Source: a virus | DNA length: 20,988 nucleotides | IMG/VR virus record: IMGVR_UViG_3300021138_000204 | Span: 1 to 20,988 of that record | Strand: one strand, 5' to 3' | Notes under the pieces: generated by a model | The model's input: the letters and a program-made list of their open reading frames with translations, nothing else | Told to the model about the DNA's origin: nothing | Database searches by the model: none | In this document: positions 3,651 to 20,426 of the stretch, in pieces | How positions within the stretch are numbered: the first letter of the stretch is position 1 | Layout: each line of letters opens with the position of its first letter | Made by a program: the position numbers and the translations under genes

Positions 3651-4232
3651 ATGAAGATAAGCGAATTGGAACGCAACACCATCAAGCCACATCAAGTTGT
3701 GACCACAGGATCCCGACCACGGAGGCCACCCGAATGGCATCTGGGCTCGTGGGATGTGTTTCAGAGAGAAAGCGCCGGCACCATTTACGCTGATGTATTT
3801 GATCACAACCGCAAGATTTTGGAAAGTATATTTGTCACACAGCGATGGGCTGATGAAGAATTCTACTGGCCAGTACCAGGCATAATATCACGCACTGTGG
3901 AAGTGAACAAAGCCTATCAGGGTCAAGCCATTGCGTTGTCATTTTACCGGGAATTGATTGTGAACCATGGCACCAACATCTACACCAATTACAGCCAAAG
4001 TGTGGGAGCCAGAAAGATGTGGGCAAGATTGAATCAAGATGCTGCCATCAATGTGTATGTGCTAGATGGCACCCACAAAAAAGTGTATAAACCCACAGTG
4101 ATAAACTCAGAACTTGCCCTAGGCAACCAGGATATCTACTCGGAAGCCACTTTCAGCTTGTGTGCTGTTGCTAGAGGAAACCCAGCAGATAACCAATTGA
4201 AATCTTTGATGAAAAAACAAGGGAACACATGA
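3651..4232 (+). CDS. GNAT-like protein with MKISEL leader
   Basis: A 193-residue protein beginning MKISELERNT. The segment about 85-127 reads like the core of a GNAT acetyltransferase: VNKAYQGQAIALSFYREL as the acetyl-CoA loop and helix, then IYTNYSQSVGARKMWARL as strand and helix. Similar degenerate GNAT-like domains occur in other T4-like phages. The canonical Q/RxxGxG/A pyrophosphate loop is only partly kept (YQGQAIA), so activity is uncertain. The start at 3651 is preferred over longer in-frame extensions because those run backwards through the endolysin gene and because the leader matches other genes here. No Shine-Dalgarno is visible. It begins a tightly packed operon with 4229 and 4471, each junction overlapping as ATGA. 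Confidence 0.55.
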   Translation: MKISELERNTIKPHQVVTTGSRPRRPPEWHLGSWDVFQRESAGTIYADVFDHNRKILESIFVTQRWADEEFYWPVPGIISRTVEVNKAYQGQAIALSFYRELIVNHGTNIYTNYSQSVGARKMWARLNQDAAINVYVLDGTHKKVYKPTVINSELALGNQDIYSEATFSLCAVARGNPADNQLKSLMKKQGNT

Positions 4233-4474
4233 TGCGAAGCGGCCGTGGACCCGAAACTCTTTTGAAAGCCAGCAAAAAACCACATGTGCAGGACCTAGTG
4301 GCGCGCTGCATTGACATGACAGATGACCAGATTGATTCTTTGGAGGAAAAGCCCGATGTCAAACGCGGTCTACGCAACATTCGCCGCGAACATCAACAAG
4401 GTGCTGCGGCGGTTCGTGCAGAAGCCATTGCACAAATCATGATGATTGCACACAAATTGAGGCATATCACATGA
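4229..4474 (+). CDS. small hypothetical protein
   Basis: An 81-residue, mostly charged and helical protein (MMRSGRGPETLLKASKKP at the start) with an Ala/Arg-rich C-terminal helix. No domain is recognised. Its ATG overlaps the stop of the previous gene (ATGA), with AGGGAA a few bases upstream. Its own stop overlaps the start of the lipoprotein gene in the same way. This coupling argues that it is a real gene of the 3651-4623 operon. Confidence 0.65.
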   Translation: MMRSGRGPETLLKASKKPHVQDLVARCIDMTDDQIDSLEEKPDVKRGLRNIRREHQQGAAAVRAEAIAQIMMIAHKLRHIT

Positions 4475-4623
4475 AGTGGATGTTGATGCTGTTGGTGCTG
4501 GCAGGTTGCAGTATCAAGAGATGCGATCCCGGTGCCAACTTGGTACAACCCAAGACTGAGTACTGGATGTATCACGATGATATCCCAACTGGCATAGAGG
4601 TCAAGGCCAAATGCAGTTTTTGA
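4471..4623 (+). CDS. 50-residue lipoprotein (possible outer spanin)
   Basis: The product starts MKWMLMLLVLAGC, a short positively charged end, a hydrophobic run and a clear lipobox (LVLAGC) with cleavage expected before Cys13. The mature part is about 38 residues with two more Cys. A lipid-anchored small protein in a phage lysis neighbourhood, with the endolysin gene starting about 850 bp away, suggests an outer-membrane spanin (Rz1-like). However, it lacks the usual proline richness and no inner spanin is recognised nearby. The start overlaps the previous stop (ATGA). The gene is followed at once by the tRNA promoter. Confidence 0.6.
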   Translation: MKWMLMLLVLAGCSIKRCDPGANLVQPKTEYWMYHDDIPTGIEVKAKCSF

Positions 4624-4633
4624 CAAATAACGC

Positions 4634-4662
4634 TTGACGACTATGTGAGAATGCCTTATATT
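4634..4662 (+). promoter_or_regulatory. sigma70-type promoter of the tRNA cluster
   Basis: TTGACG (4634-4639), a 17-nt spacer, then TATATT (4657-4662). Both hexamers match the consensus at five of six positions with ideal spacing. The predicted transcript starts about 40 nt before the first tRNA (4711) and would cover tRNA-Met, tRNA-Leu and tRNA-Gln. A host-type promoter suggests expression early in infection. Confidence 0.65.
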
Positions 4663-4690
4663 GCTGATATAGACACAGTGTGGAGAGGTG

Positions 4691-4703
4691 CACTAAATAA
4701 ATT
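4691..4703 (+). promoter_or_regulatory. TAAATA box directly before tRNA-Met
   Basis: CACTAAATAAATT ends 7 nt before the tRNA. The core CTAAATA is also found in front of the DUF4337 gene, tRNA-Arg and the HNH gene, and resembles the T4 late promoter. It could give a second, late promoter for the tRNA operon. In A/T-rich spacer DNA a chance match is possible. Confidence 0.3.
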
Positions 4704-4710
4704 TCAGTTA

Positions 4711-4792
4711 GGACGTAACGCCAAGTGGGTCGGCACCGGTCTCATAAACCGACGCGAAAGCAGGGTTGGTTCGATTCCAACTGCGTCCACCA
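4711..4792 (+). tRNA. tRNA-Met (anticodon CAT), enlarged variable loop
   Basis: Acceptor GGACGTA pairs with TGCGTCC, followed by A and encoded CCA. The D-stem is GCC/GGC with GGG in the loop. The anticodon stem is CGGT/ACCG with loop CTCATAA, giving CAT at 4743-4745; the outermost pair (C-A) is mismatched. The T-arm is GTTGG-TTCGATT-CCAAC. The variable region (4753-4764) is 12 nt, longer than the usual 4-5 nt. CAT could also be a tRNA-Ile2 that needs lysidine modification; that cannot be decided here. Confidence 0.85.
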
Positions 4793-4934
4793 AGACAGGT
4801 AAGAGCAGCAATGACCCAACACCTCCTTTCACTAGTTGGGTAGTGTCAGAGGCAGCTCACAGCGCCGGCGGAGAGTGGGGCCAGGTGTTGAAGCTTATAT
4901 AGGCAGGTGCGATACACCGTAAGACCTGTAATAT
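4793..4934 (+). other. structured spacer between tRNA-Met and tRNA-Leu
   Basis: This 142-nt gap lacks a recognisable tRNA but has strong pairing: ACCCAAC with GTTGGGT (local hairpin), CAACACCT with AGGTGTTG (long range), and ACAGGT near 4795 with ACCTGT near 4924 enclosing the whole. It is co-transcribed with the tRNAs and may be a processing spacer, a decayed tRNA or a small RNA. Confidence 0.3.
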
Positions 4935-5011
4935 GCCCGGGTATCCCAATTGGCAGAGGAGACGGTCTCAAAAACCGTATGTTGTCGGTTCGAATCCGAC
5001 CCCGGGCACCA
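4935..5011 (+). tRNA. tRNA-Leu (anticodon CAA) with short variable loop
   Basis: Acceptor GCCCGGG/CCCGGGC is perfect, followed by A and encoded CCA. Anticodon stem ACGGT/ACCGT encloses CTCAAAA, so the anticodon is CAA (codon TTG). The T-arm is GTCGG-TTCGAAT-CCGAC. The D-loop keeps TTGG, and the D-stem has one mismatch. The variable loop is only 5 nt (ATGTT), whereas bacterial tRNA-Leu normally has a long variable arm. The discriminator A fits leucine, but charging identity is open. Confidence 0.85.
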
Positions 5012-5016
5012 GCTAC

Positions 5017-13401: not shown

Positions 13402-15099
13402 GTGTCTTATATTGATGCATTTGTAGATAGAGAAAAGAATATCGTGCATGTGGTGGAGAGAACTCCCCAGGGCGAACGAAAGTTTGTCACACATCCCACA
13501 CAATATGTGGTCTATTGGCCACAAGAAACCGGAAAATACACCAACATTTTTGGTGACAAACTCAATAGATTTCGCACCACACGAAATCAGGAGTTTCAGC
13601 GTGAGATTCGCATGCTGCCGCAGGGCAAACTCTTTGAGAGTGACATCAATCCCATGTTTAGATGCTTGTATCAAAATTATCGCGATGTGCCCAGCCCCAA
13701 CTTGCATGTGGGCTTCTTTGATATTGAAGTTGATTTTGATCCCGATCGTGGATATAGTGCTGCTGACGAAGCATTCAATCCCATCACCGCCATTAGTGTT
13801 TATCTCAACTGGATGAAGCGCTGCTTTACACTGGTCCTAAAGCCGAAAAAATGGACCATGGCTGACGCTCATGCAGTGTGTGAACAGTTTCCCGACACGG
13901 TGTTGTGTGAGACCGAGCATGAAATGCTGGACATGTTCCTGAGCTTGATTGAAGATTGCGATGTCATAAGTGGCTGGAACAGCAGCACATACGATATCCC
14001 CTACGTTTACAACAGAATCATACAACAGTTGGGCAAAGAACAAACTCGCCGCCTGTGTTTGTGGAACAAACTGCCTGTCAAGCGGGAATTCTTGAACTAT
14101 GGCAAGAAGCAAGTCACATATGAACTGCAAGGCCGTGTGCATCTGGACTACTTGGATCTCTATCGCAAGCACACATACCAGGAACTGCACAGTTACAAAC
14201 TTGACTTTGTTGGTGAAATTGACACTGGCGAACGCAAAGTGCCCTATGAAGGCAGTCTTGACGCACTATACAACAAGGACTTTAAAAAGTTCATTGAGTA
14301 TAACCGACAGGACGTCATGCTGTTGGTCAAGATTGACATCAAACGACGTTTGATTGAGCTGTGCAACAACTTGGCCCATCAAAACTGTGTGCTGTTGGCC
14401 ACAACTCGCGGCAGTGTGGCGCTGATTGACCAAGCCATTGTCAACGACGCCTGGGATCAGGGTTTGGTTGTACCCAATCGCCGAACTGAAGAAGAGCCTG
14501 AAGATGCAGGTGATTTCAACATGGGCGACGAGGACGATGATGACGACGGGCCTGAAGAGAAACACGGCATTGTGGGGGCATATGTTGCTGATCCCAAAAA
14601 GGGCATGCACGAGCACATTGGCGGGGTGGACATCACCAGCCTGTATCCATCAGACATTCGTGCCCTGAACATGAGTCCCGAAACCATCGTGGGCCACATC
14701 AGACCCGAATACACAGACAAACTGATACGCAAGCGCATGCATCAGGAAAAGCGAAAGTTTGCCGAAGCATGGAACGGATTGTTCAGTACTCTGGAGTTTG
14801 CCGAAGTTCACAACCGCAGCGACATGCCACTGGTGGTGGATTTTGAAGAGGGCGTTACAGTTACAGTAACAGCAGCAGAGATGTATAAACTGGTGTTTGA
14901 TAGCAAAAAGCCCTGGATACTCAGTGCCAATGGCACCATCTTTACAACTGAAAAACTGGGTATTATCCCGGGTCTACTGGCTCGCTGGTTTGCAGATCGC
15001 ATGAAAATGCAAACGAAAATGAAAGAAATTGACAAAATAAAAACTGGCATCGAAATACCTGAGGAACTGCTTGAAAGTGTGAAGAAATTACTTTCGTAA
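13402..15099 (+). CDS. 43A: DNA polymerase gp43A (exonuclease domain and palm motif A)
   Basis: 565 residues forming the N-terminal half of a T4-like family B DNA polymerase. The 3'-5' exonuclease motifs are Exo I FFDIEVDFD (D107, E109), Exo II GWNSSTYDIPY (N193, D198) and Exo III YNRQDV (Y300, D304). Polymerase motif A is DITSLYPS (D410). An acidic insert (about 363-387) precedes motif A. After the fingers start (ANGTIFTTEKLGIIPGLLARW) the frame stops at EELLESVKKLLS, before motifs B and C. GTG 13402 is the start, with AGGAG 6 nt upstream; an out-of-frame ATG overlaps it. Motifs B and C lie in gp43B, 1.2 kb downstream beyond an HNH gene. Split gp43 genes that work as two chains are known in Aeromonas T4-like phages. 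Confidence 0.9.
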   Translation: MSYIDAFVDREKNIVHVVERTPQGERKFVTHPTQYVVYWPQETGKYTNIFGDKLNRFRTTRNQEFQREIRMLPQGKLFESDINPMFRCLYQNYRDVPSPNLHVGFFDIEVDFDPDRGYSAADEAFNPITAISVYLNWMKRCFTLVLKPKKWTMADAHAVCEQFPDTVLCETEHEMLDMFLSLIEDCDVISGWNSSTYDIPYVYNRIIQQLGKEQTRRLCLWNKLPVKREFLNYGKKQVTYELQGRVHLDYLDLYRKHTYQELHSYKLDFVGEIDTGERKVPYEGSLDALYNKDFKKFIEYNRQDVMLLVKIDIKRRLIELCNNLAHQNCVLLATTRGSVALIDQAIVNDAWDQGLVVPNRRTEEEPEDAGDFNMGDEDDDDDGPEEKHGIVGAYVADPKKGMHEHIGGVDITSLYPSDIRALNMSPETIVGHIRPEYTDKLIRKRMHQEKRKFAEAWNGLFSTLEFAEVHNRSDMPLVVDFEEGVTVTVTAAEMYKLVFDSKKPWILSANGTIFTTEKLGIIPGLLARWFADRMKMQTKMKEIDKIKTGIEIPEELLESVKKLLS

Positions 15100-15100
15100 T

Positions 15101-15110
15101 TACTAAATAG
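15101..15110 (+). promoter_or_regulatory. TAAATA late-type promoter for the HNH gene
   Basis: TACTAAATAG lies immediately after the gp43A stop, with the core CTAAATA ending 21 nt before the HNH ATG. It matches the CTAAATA boxes at 4693, 6379 and 6435. In T4 the intron endonuclease I-TevI is also expressed from its own late promoter, which keeps it separate from early host-gene expression. Confidence 0.45.
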
Positions 15111-15130
15111 TTTATACGGAGGCATTACGA

Positions 15131-16327
15131 ATGAAACTATCGGAAATCAAAACATTGCTGGAACAAACCCTGCATATTAGGTCCCAATTACATTTTGACC
15201 GATATATCAAGTTTGTCGAAAGCTTTGTAGAGCTAAATCTATCCAAACCCAATGGCAGTTGTGGTGGGTTTGAAACTCACCACATACTTCCAAAAAAAAT
15301 TTTTCCGGAATTTACCACAAGCCGGTGGAACAAGATAATAATGCCATCGAAGGCACATTATCTAGCACATTACCTATTGTTCAAAGCCATTGCTCATCCT
15401 AGTCTTGTTTACTCGTTCAACCAAATGAGAAGAGTATCCAAGAAAGCCGGAAAAGTCAATTGTAGACTATATGCCGCAGTGAGACAAGAATTCGCTGAAT
15501 TGATCCGACAGACCAATACCGGTAAAGTCCGTTCCGAAAAATTTCGAAATGATGTGTCAGCACGAACGATCGGAAAGAACAATTATCGTAATGACAAAAC
15601 ACAAGAGGTTAAAAAATTTCCGGTAGGGCAACAACCGGAAGGATGGGTTCCATTCCAAAAAGGTCGAAAAAGAACTGACGAATCAAAAGACAAGATAACA
15701 GAGATAATGACCGGCAGGATCTGGCAGTATAACGAACTGACCCAAGAAGTTAGATTTGAAAAATCTCTATTACCAGGATTTGTACAAGGTTATCCTGATT
15801 GGTACGACACAAGTAAAGATTACTTGAAGTCTCTCAGTTGGGCATATAACTCTGATACCGGGGAAGTTGTTCGAGTCAAAAAAGAAACCGTACTGCCAGA
15901 TGGATTTATCCTAGGACGAAATTACAACAATGTCGGATTCACTGCAATCAATAACGCCCAAGTAGCCAGAGTTGTTGATTTACAGGAGAAAGAGTTCTGC
16001 ATGGTACCATCCAACATACTTCCTCATCCTAGGTATATCAAATCTGGATCCTCCATAGACAATGTCTGCTTATTTGTTTATAATAACATAGTATACACGT
16101 CATATAAAGATTTGATTGAGATGAATCCGGAACTTCCTGACCTAGGAGTTCGAAACACTGATTTGTCATCAAGACTGGTTCCAAAACCACACTTCAATAT
16201 GACCGATCTGAGGAAAGAATTTTGCACAAAGAACCAGGGACTCACCATGAATACCATAGGCCTAACGGTCCTTCAACTATCTCAATTCAAATATCAGGAG
16301 GATGTAATATATGTTAGACGTAAGTGA
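15131..16327 (+). CDS. free-standing HNH homing endonuclease
   Basis: 398 residues. The HNH core is H50-H51 in FETHHILPKKIF, N67 in RWNKII, and H76/H80 in KAHYLAH. The C-terminal half holds at least two repeats of the form W-x-YN-x-x-TxEV...LPxGF...G (IWQYNELTQEV near 198 and SWAYNSDTGEV near 243), with a weaker third copy (KTQEVKKFPVGQQPEGW). These are probably DNA-binding modules. A good site (GGAGG) lies before ATG 15131. The leader MKLSEI resembles other leaders in the window. The gene is visibly A/T-richer than its neighbours, as expected for an acquired element. It separates gp43A from gp43B, and its last 17 nt overlap the gp43B start. It has its own start and stop, so it is not an intein. 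Confidence 0.85.
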   Translation: MKLSEIKTLLEQTLHIRSQLHFDRYIKFVESFVELNLSKPNGSCGGFETHHILPKKIFPEFTTSRWNKIIMPSKAHYLAHYLLFKAIAHPSLVYSFNQMRRVSKKAGKVNCRLYAAVRQEFAELIRQTNTGKVRSEKFRNDVSARTIGKNNYRNDKTQEVKKFPVGQQPEGWVPFQKGRKRTDESKDKITEIMTGRIWQYNELTQEVRFEKSLLPGFVQGYPDWYDTSKDYLKSLSWAYNSDTGEVVRVKKETVLPDGFILGRNYNNVGFTAINNAQVARVVDLQEKEFCMVPSNILPHPRYIKSGSSIDNVCLFVYNNIVYTSYKDLIEMNPELPDLGVRNTDLSSRLVPKPHFNMTDLRKEFCTKNQGLTMNTIGLTVLQLSQFKYQEDVIYVRRK

Positions 16328-17793
16328 AATAGAATCTGCAATCGAAAGTGGTGATGCAGATAAATTAGCAAGTCTTGTCAAGACTTACAATTTGAAAATC
16401 AAGGAGGGACGAATTACAGCCGATTTGGATGTTTCCAAGCAATATGAAGCGTATTGGGACCAAAGGCAACTAATTCAAAAGATTCTCCTAAATTCGTAAA
16501 AATTGCGACCCAAGCAGGCAACTGTTTGATGAAAACCGCTCTAATTGCTGGAAACTCCCTTCTGGGACAATCAGCAGCCAAGCCTGGAAACAGGAAGGTT
16601 CAACGACTAGATCGAAAGATCGTAGATCCAAGTGGATCGAAATGGGTGGCATCCCTCTGGGATGGTGATATAGTCTCCTCTGCATAGTAATATGCAGCAG
16701 CATTTCGAATGCGGAACAGAACTAACGACTCTGTTTGAAGATAAAGGTATACGGCGCTATTGGCAATGCTGGTTCCAGGTTCTTCGATGAGCGCATTGCT
16801 CAGAGTGTGACACTGACTGGTCGCTGCATTGCGCGTCACATGGGCAGTAAAATCAATGAGCTGATAACTGGTCTATACGATCACACTGGCGATGCACTCG
16901 TATATGGTGATACCGATTCCGTTTATTTCTCAGCGTATCCTGTGATGCGAGGCCAGCCGGAGTTTGCAGACTTTGACTGGAGCCGTGAGAATGTCATTGA
17001 TTTGTATGACAAAATTGCAGCGCTGACAAATGAAAGCTTTCCTGTCTACATGAAGGCAGCCTTCAACTGCCCTGATACAAACGGCAAACTGATTAAAGCT
17101 GCCCGAGAATTGTGTGCAAGCCGTGGCATCTTTATCAAGAAGAAGCGTTACGCAGTGTTGATCTTTGATAAAGAAGGCAAGCGCAAGGACAAAAACGGCA
17201 GTGCGGGTGAAATCAAGGCTATGGGCTTGGATCTCAAGCGCGCAGACACGCCCAAGATTGTGCAGGACTTTCTCAGTGCAGTGTTGCTGAACTTGCTCAC
17301 AGGCACCACGCAGGAAGATCTCATGACACAAGTTGCAGAATTCCGCAAGGTTTTCTCCGACTGGCCCGGCTGGGAAAAAGGCACGCCCAAACGTGTAAAC
17401 AAGCTGAGCTATTATCGAGATGCCAAAAAGAACAACGAAACATTGGTATGGGGTACAAAATCCAAACGTGTGAACTTGCCAGGCCACGTGCTGGCCAGCC
17501 TAAACTGGAACCAACTCAAGAAGTTGTATGCCGATCATGGCTGCATGGAGATACAAGACGGGGCCAAGGTGATTGTGTGTAAATTGCGTGACAATCACCT
17601 GGGCATGACCAGCGTGTCTTATCCCATCGATCAGGACCACTTGCCCGATTGGTTCAAACAGTTGCCGTTTGATCATGAGGCCATGGAGACTGCACTTATT
17701 GACAAAAAAGTGCATAATCTACTATCGGTATTGGGATGGGATTTATCCCAAAGCAAACGGGACAGCAGTTTTGACAGCTTGTTTAGCTTTTGA
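16311..17793 (+). CDS. 43B: DNA polymerase gp43B (spliced: 16311-16497 + 16748-17793)
   Basis: A 410-residue C-terminal half of the polymerase. Exon 1 starts at ATG 16311 with CAGGAGG at 16297-16303, inside the end of the HNH gene. It codes for fingers residues and YWDQRQLIQKILLNS. Unspliced, it stops at once (TAA at 16497-16499). Joining T16497 to T16748 makes a Leu codon and restores polymerase motif B, LLNSLYGAIGN (N61-S62-L63-Y64-G65). Exon 2 carries motif C, VYGDTDSVYF (D117, D119), the thumb, and a C-terminal SSFDSLFSF that resembles the clamp-binding tail of T4 gp43. The total frame (187 + 1046 nt) is a multiple of three. The product must pair with gp43A to give an active enzyme; this is inferred from known split gp43 proteins. 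Confidence 0.88.
16498..16747 (+). ncRNA. group I self-splicing intron (250 nt, no ORF)
   Basis: All four conserved core elements are present in order. P is AATTGCTGGAAA (16543-16554). Q is AATCAGCAGCCA (16569-16580). R is GTTCAACGACTAG (16598-16610). S is GATATAGTC (16667-16675). P1 forms between the exon end TCGT and GCGA (16505-16508), giving the required U-G pair at the 5' splice site (T97-G05). The intron ends in G16747 as expected. P9-type hairpins follow S: CTGCATA-GTAA-TATGCAG (GNRA-type loop) and GCATT-TCG-AATGC. Splicing restores polymerase motif B exactly. The intron has no reading frame of its own; the nearest endonuclease is the HNH gene about 170 bp upstream. Confidence 0.93.
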
Positions 17794-18632: not shown

Positions 18633-18645
18633 TTTGTGGAACATC

Positions 18646-19416
18646 ATGAAAACAAAATATCACAGCATCTTTGTCAGTGACTTGCATTTGGGAGCAGGCG
18701 AAAGCCAAGCTGACGCATTTGCCAGCTTTATGAAACAGTTTGATTGCGACAACCTCTACATGGTTGGCGACATGATTGACGGCTGGAAGATGAAGCGCAG
18801 ATGGTATTGGCCACAGAGCCACAGCAATGCACTAAGGCGTGTGCTCACCAAGGCCAAACGCGGGTGTCGTATTGTTTATGTAACTGGCAATCATGACGAA
18901 TTCCTGCGTGATTTGTTTGTGGAGCATGGCAGATTTGGGGACATCGAAATAGTAAATGAAATCATCTACACAGATGTAAAAAACCGCCGTTGGCTGGTGA
19001 CTCATGGCGACATGTTTGATCAAGTAACACGACACTATCGCTGGATTAGTTTGCTGGGGGATCGTCTCTACACCATGTTGTTGTGGAGCAATCGTCTGTT
19101 GCATGTTGTGAGAAACCGTCTGGGTCTCAGTCACTGGAGTTTGAGTCAGTATATCAAAAGCAACACCAAACAGGCACTGAATTTCATCTACAAGTTTGAA
19201 GAGCATCTTGTGGCACATGCAGAGAAGCAATCAGCGCAAGGTGTGATTTGTGGTCACATCCACACACCGGCGATGAAGATGATTGGCAATCTGCATTACA
19301 TCAACACCGGTGACTTTTGTGAAACATGCAGTGCTGTGGCAGAAACACCTGACGGGCAATGGCATTTGTTGATGCTAGATGCCGACGGAAACTGGTTTGT
19401 GCAGGACATGCTATGA
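18646..19416 (+). CDS. calcineurin-like phosphoesterase, PlcP/LpxH-like
   Basis: 256 residues with every metal-binding motif of the family: SDLHLG (D12, H14), VGDMIDGW (D42), TGNHDE (N82, H83), THGD (H120) and CGHIHTP (H204, H206). By family it resembles UDP-2,3-diacylglucosamine hydrolase (COG2908). Members paired with a GT4 enzyme include PlcP, a phospholipase C that removes phosphate headgroups from phosphatidylglycerol and phosphatidylethanolamine to give diacylglycerol during phosphate starvation. The next gene overlaps (ATGA) and is such a GT4 enzyme, which favours PlcP over LpxH. LpxH remains possible. I chose ATG 18646; TTG 18634 would add four residues. No signal peptide or membrane segment is visible, so it probably acts at the inner face of the membrane. 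Confidence 0.75.
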   Translation: MKTKYHSIFVSDLHLGAGESQADAFASFMKQFDCDNLYMVGDMIDGWKMKRRWYWPQSHSNALRRVLTKAKRGCRIVYVTGNHDEFLRDLFVEHGRFGDIEIVNEIIYTDVKNRRWLVTHGDMFDQVTRHYRWISLLGDRLYTMLLWSNRLLHVVRNRLGLSHWSLSQYIKSNTKQALNFIYKFEEHLVAHAEKQSAQGVICGHIHTPAMKMIGNLHYINTGDFCETCSAVAETPDGQWHLLMLDADGNWFVQDML

Positions 19417-20426
19417 AGATTTGCATCGTTACAGACACCTGGCAACAAATCAACGGTGTGAGCACCACCTTGAAAAACACAGTCAAGTGTCTCCGGCAAA
19501 TGGGGCATGAAGTTTTGGTTATCGAACCCAGCCAGTTTTTTCACATGCCCATGCCTGGCTATCGCGAAGTGCAATGGAGTTTGGATCTGTGGAATGTGGG
19601 CAGACGAATTGCCAAATTCCATCCCCACGCCATACATATCGCCACTGAAGGACCCCTGGGGTTCGCTGCACGTTGGTACTGCAAAGTCACACGACGCAGC
19701 ATTCCGCATAACACCAGCTATCATACCAAAATGCCCGAGTATCTGCAGAAAAAGTTCGGGGTTCCGGTGAGCTGGAGTTATCCTGTGTTTCGCATGTTCC
19801 ACAAATACAGTCATCGTGTGTTGGTGACCAATAAAACCATGGTTCGTGAACTGGCCGCACAGGGTTTTGCCAAATTGACCGTGTGGAGCAGAGGGGTGGA
19901 TCAAGAATTATTCACCCCAGAACTGCGATCGCCTGTTAGTCAACATGACTTGGGACCTGCGCCTATTATAATGTGCGTGAGCCGAGTTAGCCACGAGAAA
20001 AACCTGGAAGCCTTCTGTGAATTGCGCACCGCGGGCACATTGGTTGTAGTGGGCGATGGTCCTACCAGAGCCGAACTGCAACGACGATATCCTGCCGTTA
20101 AGTGGCTGGGATATAAAACAGGAACAGAGTTAGCCAAATGTTACGCCAACGCCGATGTGTTTGTGTTTCCCAGCAAAACAGACACGTTTGGTGTGGTGAT
20201 GTTGGAAAGCATGGCATGCGGCACTCCAGTGGCTGCTTATCCTGTCACTGGTCCTGTGGACGTGGTGGAACAAAACATCACAGGAATTTTACATGAAGAT
20301 TTGCAGACTGCCATGGAACAAGCACTATTGCTTGATCGCAACACAGTTCATCAAGCCAGCGCACGCTGGACATGGCAATCTTGCACGGAAACATTCGTGC
20401 AGAATCTCATAACAATATCACACTGA
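19413..20426 (+). CDS. GT4 glycosyltransferase, Agt-like
   Basis: 337 residues with a GT-B fold pattern. The N-domain has KICIVTDTWQQINGVSTTL (2-20), IATEGPLGFAAR (76-87) and TSYHTKMPEY (101-110). The C-domain has WSRGVD (158-163), VSRVSHEKNLEAF (189-201), GDGP (214-217) and the donor site FPSKTDTFGVVMLESMACGTPV spanning 252-273 (E265; the usual first Glu of the EX7E motif is D257). This pattern fits lipid glycosyltransferases that put a sugar on diacylglycerol. Paired with a PlcP-like enzyme it would make glycolipids (mono-hexosyl diacylglycerol) from the released diacylglycerol, as Agt does in phosphate-starved marine bacteria. ATG 19413 overlaps the previous stop (ATGA), so the two are translationally coupled. 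The sugar and acceptor are not provable from sequence. Confidence 0.75.
   Translation: MKICIVTDTWQQINGVSTTLKNTVKCLRQMGHEVLVIEPSQFFHMPMPGYREVQWSLDLWNVGRRIAKFHPHAIHIATEGPLGFAARWYCKVTRRSIPHNTSYHTKMPEYLQKKFGVPVSWSYPVFRMFHKYSHRVLVTNKTMVRELAAQGFAKLTVWSRGVDQELFTPELRSPVSQHDLGPAPIIMCVSRVSHEKNLEAFCELRTAGTLVVVGDGPTRAELQRRYPAVKWLGYKTGTELAKCYANADVFVFPSKTDTFGVVMLESMACGTPVAAYPVTGPVDVVEQNITGILHEDLQTAMEQALLLDRNTVHQASARWTWQSCTETFVQNLITISH

Follow-up and report, generated by a model that had tools for sequence, protein, structure and literature searches.

A candidate homing cassette of an HNH endonuclease gene and an ORF-less group I intron in a split phage gp43

The DNA analyzed here (the window) is a 20,988-base IMG/VR virus contig whose DNA polymerase gene, gp43, carries a freestanding HNH endonuclease gene followed by an ORF-less group I intron. 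We consider it probable that this region is a composite homing cassette, which both splits a previously intact gp43 and gives it an intron, with the HNH enzyme cutting at or near motif B. This reading draws on the anatomy of the locus, block transfers, covariation within the intron, copies of motif B beside the nuclease gene, and the exchange of nucleases beside a constant intron. The original prediction, made from the window sequence alone, had proposed collaborative homing, in which the freestanding nuclease spreads both elements; the mechanism is plausible and now better supported than it was from that sequence.

Anatomy of the split gp43 locus

Among named phages, the nearest relatives of the window gp43 are in jumbo phages such as Sinorhizobium phage Phosso and Agrobacterium phage Atu_ph07 (47 to 50% protein identity). 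The gene is divided into two cistrons: gp43A, which holds the exonuclease, motif A, and the fingers as far as their tip, has its own stop codon at 15099, and gp43B restarts at an ATG at 16311 (Table 1). The prediction that an HNH gene lies upstream of the intron in the same gene is correct as to position, but the host gene is split and its frame interrupted. The last HNH codons overlap the gp43B start, and the HNH stop is separated from the intron by 170 nt of coding exon.

Table 1. Features of the gp43 locus, in window positions
Feature	Position	Strand	Content or basis
gp43A	13402..15099	+	N-terminal part of a PolB-type DNA polymerase; phrog_262 (E 8e-113), PF03104 and PF00136
Foreign C-terminal tail of gp43A (...GIEIPEELLESVKKLL)	15012..15099	+	Left edge of the putative transferred block
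Vestigial motif B-like copy, LLNSLYGGI	15100..15126	+	Between gp43A stop and HNH start
T4-late-promoter-like element, CTAAATA	15103..15109	+	5' of the HNH gene; putative function
Shine-Dalgarno-like sequence of the HNH gene, GGAGG	15118..15122	+	Within the motif B copy; sequence
MobE-like HNH homing endonuclease gene, 398 aa	15131..16327	+	PHROG, conserved residues, Foldseek
Ribosome-binding site of gp43B, AGGAGG	16296..16301	+	In the 3' end of the HNH gene; sequence
gp43B exon 1	16311..16497	+	Head segment, P helix, first half of motif B (QLIQKILLNS)
ORF-less group I intron, 250 nt	16498..16747	+	In motif B at NS(T^TA)YG; Rfam, exon ligation, covariation
gp43B exon 2	16748..17793	+	LYGAIGN, motif C, thumb; native

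Among the PHROG families, the HNH protein hits phrog_655 (homing endonuclease; E 1.5e-25) and also phrog_12434 (HNH endonuclease; 8.5e-11); its residues H50, H51, N67, and H76 show no variation across 11 homologues. Foldseek against viral structure models returned phage MobE, MobB, and MobC; since the pTM of the structure model is 0.35, we took into account only hits in the viral library that are named HNH homing endonucleases. Sequence and Foldseek searches of the PDB with this protein gave nothing usable, and no match to a Pfam or NCBIfam model was found. A single-protein search of IMG/VR returned no HNH relatives, while a search with a two-sequence alignment (A1) returned 12. By its active-site residues and family similarity, the protein is predicted to be a MobE-type HNH homing endonuclease. 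CTAAATA occurs four times in the window (1.0 expected), and (C/A)TAAATA recurs at this position in every HNH relative; it is likely a late promoter, and the enzyme is probably made late. The GGAGG before the HNH gene is invariant in the window's HNH clade.

In agreement with the prediction of an intron without an endonuclease gene, no ORF of note lies inside the 250 nt. The intron gives a full-length match to Rfam RF00028 (16488-16697, 83.6 bits, E 2.9e-20), and ligation of 16497 to 16748 restores an intact motif B, ILLNSLYGAIGN, as expected if splicing proceeds as predicted. Double-sided changes are seen in 26 of 73 predicted intron pairs in an eight-sequence alignment. In P1, where the Ser codon of the exon pairs with the intron, the bases are UCG/CGA in six introns and UCC/GGA in two (L223 and L229); because this exon-intron pair covaries, the end of the exon and the intron evolve together. 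The conserved core, the P1 U.G at the 5' splice site, and the terminal G place the element, by sequence, as a group I intron, probably IA2-like. The core of this intron subfamily is present in 47 IMG/VR stretches (L164-L210), only six of them in gp43; the intron therefore also inhabits other host genes.

Two further observations concern the rest of the window. An ORF at 105-515 has a GIY-YIG-like stretch (GIYIIT...YVGKG) and is possibly a further nuclease gene, with no PHROG match; at 18634-20426, genes for a metallophosphoesterase and a group 1 glycosyltransferase adjoin the replication genes.

Block transfer of the nuclease gene and the intron

The ingredients of a collaborative pair are present: an ORF-less intron whose splicing is predicted, a freestanding HNH gene beside it, and empty alleles in close relatives. 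One such relative, L002, has neither HNH gene nor intron, and alleles without intron or nuclease also occur in close relatives L003, L004, L011, and L023. Identity between the window and L002 is 88% to the left of about 15011 and 92% from 16748 onward; blastn aligns nothing in the stretch between, coding exon 1 included. The last 45 nt of exon 1 encode nearly the same peptide in both, yet just 27 of 45 nt (60%) are identical, and several other split alleles match the window at 33 to 36 of the 45. The first 165 nt of exon 2, by contrast, are 94% identical to L002 and 59 to 67% identical to other intron-bearing alleles; the difference in identity to L002 between the end of exon 1 (60%) and the start of exon 2 (94%) has a binomial P of about 1e-7. 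GC content is 33 to 42% from 15000 to about 16400 and mostly 44 to 54% in the flanks. The simplest reading is that the gp43A tail, the HNH gene, exon 1, and the intron entered in one transfer whose right edge lies at the intron; unsplit neighbors suggest that the direction in the window was gain.

A second pair of alleles gives a similar picture. L220 and L222 are mostly 87 to 99% identical across the gp43A tail, HNH gene, exon 1, and intron, against about 75% in the left flank and about 60% in the right, and the right edge falls within about 8 nt of the intron end. In both comparisons, this edge is at most about 10 nt from the intron 3' end. Joint spread, as originally proposed, accords with this single block in each pair, and the two comparisons support the conclusion that the HNH gene and the intron moved together.

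The gp43A tail shared by split alleles (GIEIP.ELL..V.KLL) and the gp43B head are both missing from unsplit relatives. In the window, both are foreign along with the HNH gene and the intron, and thus the block brings with it the split, a recoded motif B, and the intron. Our guess is that tail and head help to join the gp43A and gp43B chains.

Relatives, nuclease turnover, and known systems

The same intron occurs at the same site in further contigs, every one with a split gp43. It is paired with an HNH gene in the window, L220/L221, L222, L223, and L229; with a Vsr-like nuclease gene on the other strand in L030/L218 and L177 (NUMOD3 in L030); with a DUF723-type nuclease gene, also on the other strand, in L194; and with no nuclease in L180 and L217. 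L224 and its near-identical relatives combine the HNH gene with an intron about 3 nt further on, as read from the alleles themselves. HNH genes without an intron are found in L230 and, by Rfam, in Lazarusvirus (L160/L161), and L022 has a split gp43 with a decayed Vsr-like nuclease and no intron. Among the loci scanned with Rfam, introns occur only in split gp43, and gap analysis of the unsplit gp43 loci checked found no insert at the motif B site. The gp43 of L109 (4250-4750; motif B NSAYGA) is split without nuclease or intron, a possible split-only state like that of phage 44RR.

The gp43A tree has 5 changes of the intron, 7 of nuclease presence, and 6 of nuclease type. The independent events are few: in 5 independent pairs, nuclease and intron typically change together in 4, oppositely in none, with 1 tied (median p 0.125). 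In a sample gathered by gp43 similarity only, both introns lie in the three nuclease loci (hypergeometric P about 2.5e-4, uncorrected for kinship). The other loci came from searches for one of the two elements, intron or HNH gene, so their frequencies are biased. The original prediction had counted independent distribution among relatives as evidence against the pair, and by this standard it is partly contradicted: the joint changes speak for the pair, but the intron also occurs with other nucleases or none and the HNH gene without the intron. The partnership is loose, and neither element therefore needs the other to persist.

This looseness bears on a turnover reading, to which we give about an even chance. 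The intron would be an old motif B resident of split gp43, with unrelated nucleases settling successively in the adjacent split and each mobilizing it for a while, and the window HNH would be the current tenant and no dedicated partner. Near-identical introns beside HNH, DUF723-type, Vsr-like, or no nuclease, together with the type changes on the tree, argue for it: the L194 intron (DUF723-type) is 93 to 94% identical to those of L220 and L222 (HNH), the L177 intron (Vsr-like) is 87 to 88% identical to the same two, L180 has the intron alone, and L217 and L220, whose gp43A is 79% identical, have introns 100% identical with a nuclease only in L220. It accounts less readily for the HNH gene, exon 1, and intron forming one foreign block in the window lineage, or for the presence of HNH plus intron in the window, L223/L229, L224, and L220/L222 alike. 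Turnover is compatible with a homing cassette and differs from it on the stability of the pair. A further report of collaborative homing concerns T3/T7-like phages and raises nuclease turnover with purging of an intronic nuclease as the alternative (PMC10448857).

The expectation of a second example in a different gene, after cyanophage psbA, was mistaken, as the same gp43 architecture was described from Aeromonas phage 25 in 2010. Gene 43 of this phage (L163) runs 43A - seg43(25) - 43B, with a freestanding endonuclease gene in the split and an ORF-less group IA2 intron in 43B (Petrov, Ratnayaka and Karam 2010; PMC2993671, PMC2988022). The window shares its host gene and gene order, split gp43, freestanding nuclease, and ORF-less group I intron in motif B of 43B. 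It differs in having an HNH enzyme instead of a GIY-YIG/Seg-like one and an intron at NS^LYG instead of after LYGA, 12 nt downstream; moreover, no motif B copy was found beside seg43, and the phage lineages are very different. In vitro, the phage 25 nuclease reportedly cuts homologues of the 43B site that lack the intron.

Closer in nuclease family is Providencia phage PSTCR6 (MW057858, L162), in which 43A, a MobE-like HNH gene, 43B exon 1, an ORF-less group I intron (Rfam, 71.8 bits), and exon 2 follow one another, with a motif B copy beside the HNH start; intron and cassette are unannotated in MW057858. Unlike in the window, this HNH gene lies on the opposite strand, its product is only 23% identical, and the intron is at the phage 25 position. 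Lazarusvirus (Acinetobacter phages Lazarus, Apostate, and others) likewise has a split gp43, a MobE-like HNH gene, and a motif B copy at its start, but the HNH gene is reversed, several small ORFs occupy the split, and there is no intron.

Outside gp43, the psbA intron of cyanophage S-PM2 and F-CphI were proposed to spread jointly, the intron blocking self-cleavage (PMC6083498). There too a freestanding nuclease gene adjoins an ORF-less intron; unlike in the window, the enzyme is endonuclease VII-like, its gene lies outside the host gene, and cleavage was established by experiment. T4 MobE mediates homing in trans of the nrdB intron, which has a defunct I-TevIII (PMC2988022): again a MobE-family HNH enzyme mobilizes an intron outside which it resides, although the gene differs and the intron retains a dead nuclease ORF.

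What was already known, then, is the order of nuclease and ORF-less intron in a phage gp43; the window and its relatives add, as new features, a different nuclease family, an intron site shifted by 12 nt, visible nuclease turnover, and transfers of whole cassettes. The locus bears on how a freestanding nuclease and an enzyme-less intron came to share one target, for which nuclease pre-adaptation and nuclease turnover with a purged intronic nuclease are candidate routes. The locus and its relatives offer snapshots of this process: one and the same intron is seen in the company of three nuclease classes or of none, two block transfers are clean, and copies of the target adjoin the nuclease gene. 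They also supply concrete alleles for direct tests: L002 (empty), L217 (without nuclease), L220 (with HNH), and L194 (with another nuclease).

Pectobacterium phage POP12 (L233) was considered as a further split gp43 with an HNH gene and was set aside, as a group I intron at motif A seems to house its HNH gene. This HNH, of the same broad family, is at about 3880-5015, in a putative intron at FDLTSL^YPS that was read from sequence and is unreported by Rfam at the gathering threshold. Intein-like insertions at or near YGD^TDS (motif C) were seen in the gp43 of L030, L222, L229/L188, L023, L177, L180, and L194, some with a Vsr-like nuclease domain; most of the hosts also have the split and the intron. 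In L010 (3869-8041), gp43 is one uninterrupted frame, and its exonuclease domain holds about 1.3 kb of additional sequence, probably another intein.

Motif B copies and the proposed mechanism

Between the gp43A stop and the HNH start, TTACTAAATAGTTTATACGGAGGCATT reads LLNSLYGGI, compared with LLNSLYGAI in the real motif B, and scores 39 against a null mean of 17 (sd 3.8). Similar copies occupy the same place in L223, L229, L224, and L228; in L220 and L222, only SLYGGI is left, with a score that about one random stretch in 10 also reaches. The copies in PSTCR6 (MNSLYGASDN) and Lazarusvirus (VNPLYGALG) read in the polymerase sense and abut the start of a reversed HNH gene. Scores in these loci are 32 to 42 against null means of 16 to 19; they are weak in L220, L222, and L230, where the L230 copy is not convincing. 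In a six-frame scan of 2.35 Mb, matches scoring at least 35 other than gp43 motif B itself occurred only at such HNH starts; the filter missed the ordinary gp43 motif B sites of L010 and L233, and it removed the window copy as native-like. Next to the Vsr-like and DUF723-type nucleases, the search turned up no copy.

In the window clade, the copy overlaps the promoter-like and Shine-Dalgarno-like sequences. We considered whether it is simply these two signals; they could explain part of it but leave the longer copies in L223, L229, PSTCR6, and Lazarusvirus unexplained. By its adjoining copies, the HNH gene is tied to the intron insertion site in two separate insertions. Motif B is thus the likely HNH cleavage target, and the copy may be a scar of HNH insertion there.

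In the homing cassette that we propose, the parts would be a new gp43A tail, the HNH gene, a gp43B head with its own ribosome-binding site, a recoded P helix and motif B, and the intron. During co-infection, the HNH enzyme would cut the other phage's gp43 within or beside motif B, and repair would extend the copied block to the nearest homology on either side, the gp43A palm and fingers on the left and exon 2 just past the intron on the right. Both elements would be inherited together through this repair; the intron and the exon recoding would leave the product without a cleavable site, and the intron would splice out, so that the split polymerase works. We infer the cleavage site, immunity, gp43A/gp43B assembly, and expression timing of this scheme. 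A more specific version, a 'home-and-rescue' element, is tentative and to our mind somewhat less likely than its negation. Here the HNH enzyme would cut motif B of an essential polymerase, the cassette would supply a recoded, intron-shielded replacement for the segment destroyed and a matched tail/head pair allowing the polymerase to function as two chains, and unrelated nucleases would repeatedly take the same dock next to an unchanging intron.

The HNH enzyme might instead target its own insertion point at the fingers tip, as in intron-less homing, with the intron, 170 nt off, merely co-converted. HNH genes do occur without an intron (L230 and Lazarusvirus L160/L161), and homology alone can explain the block edges: similar ones could arise from a fingers-tip cut, since the first conserved stretch to the right of it is motif B. 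We nevertheless regard this as unlikely, given that two separate insertions, with the HNH gene in opposite orientations, each have a motif B copy up against the HNH start and that the right block edge lies at the intron and not at random distances. That ordinary recombination among co-infecting phages spread the block, with the HNH gene a passenger or inactive, is in keeping with the general mosaicism of gp43 in these phages but highly improbable in view of intact ORFs, catalytic residues invariant in 11 homologues, repeated gain in separate gp43 lineages, and block edges that match in two transfers.

The HNH-bearing, intron-less gp43B of L230 (7305-7450) reads NSLFGSEL at motif B, possibly a case of sequence-based immunity.
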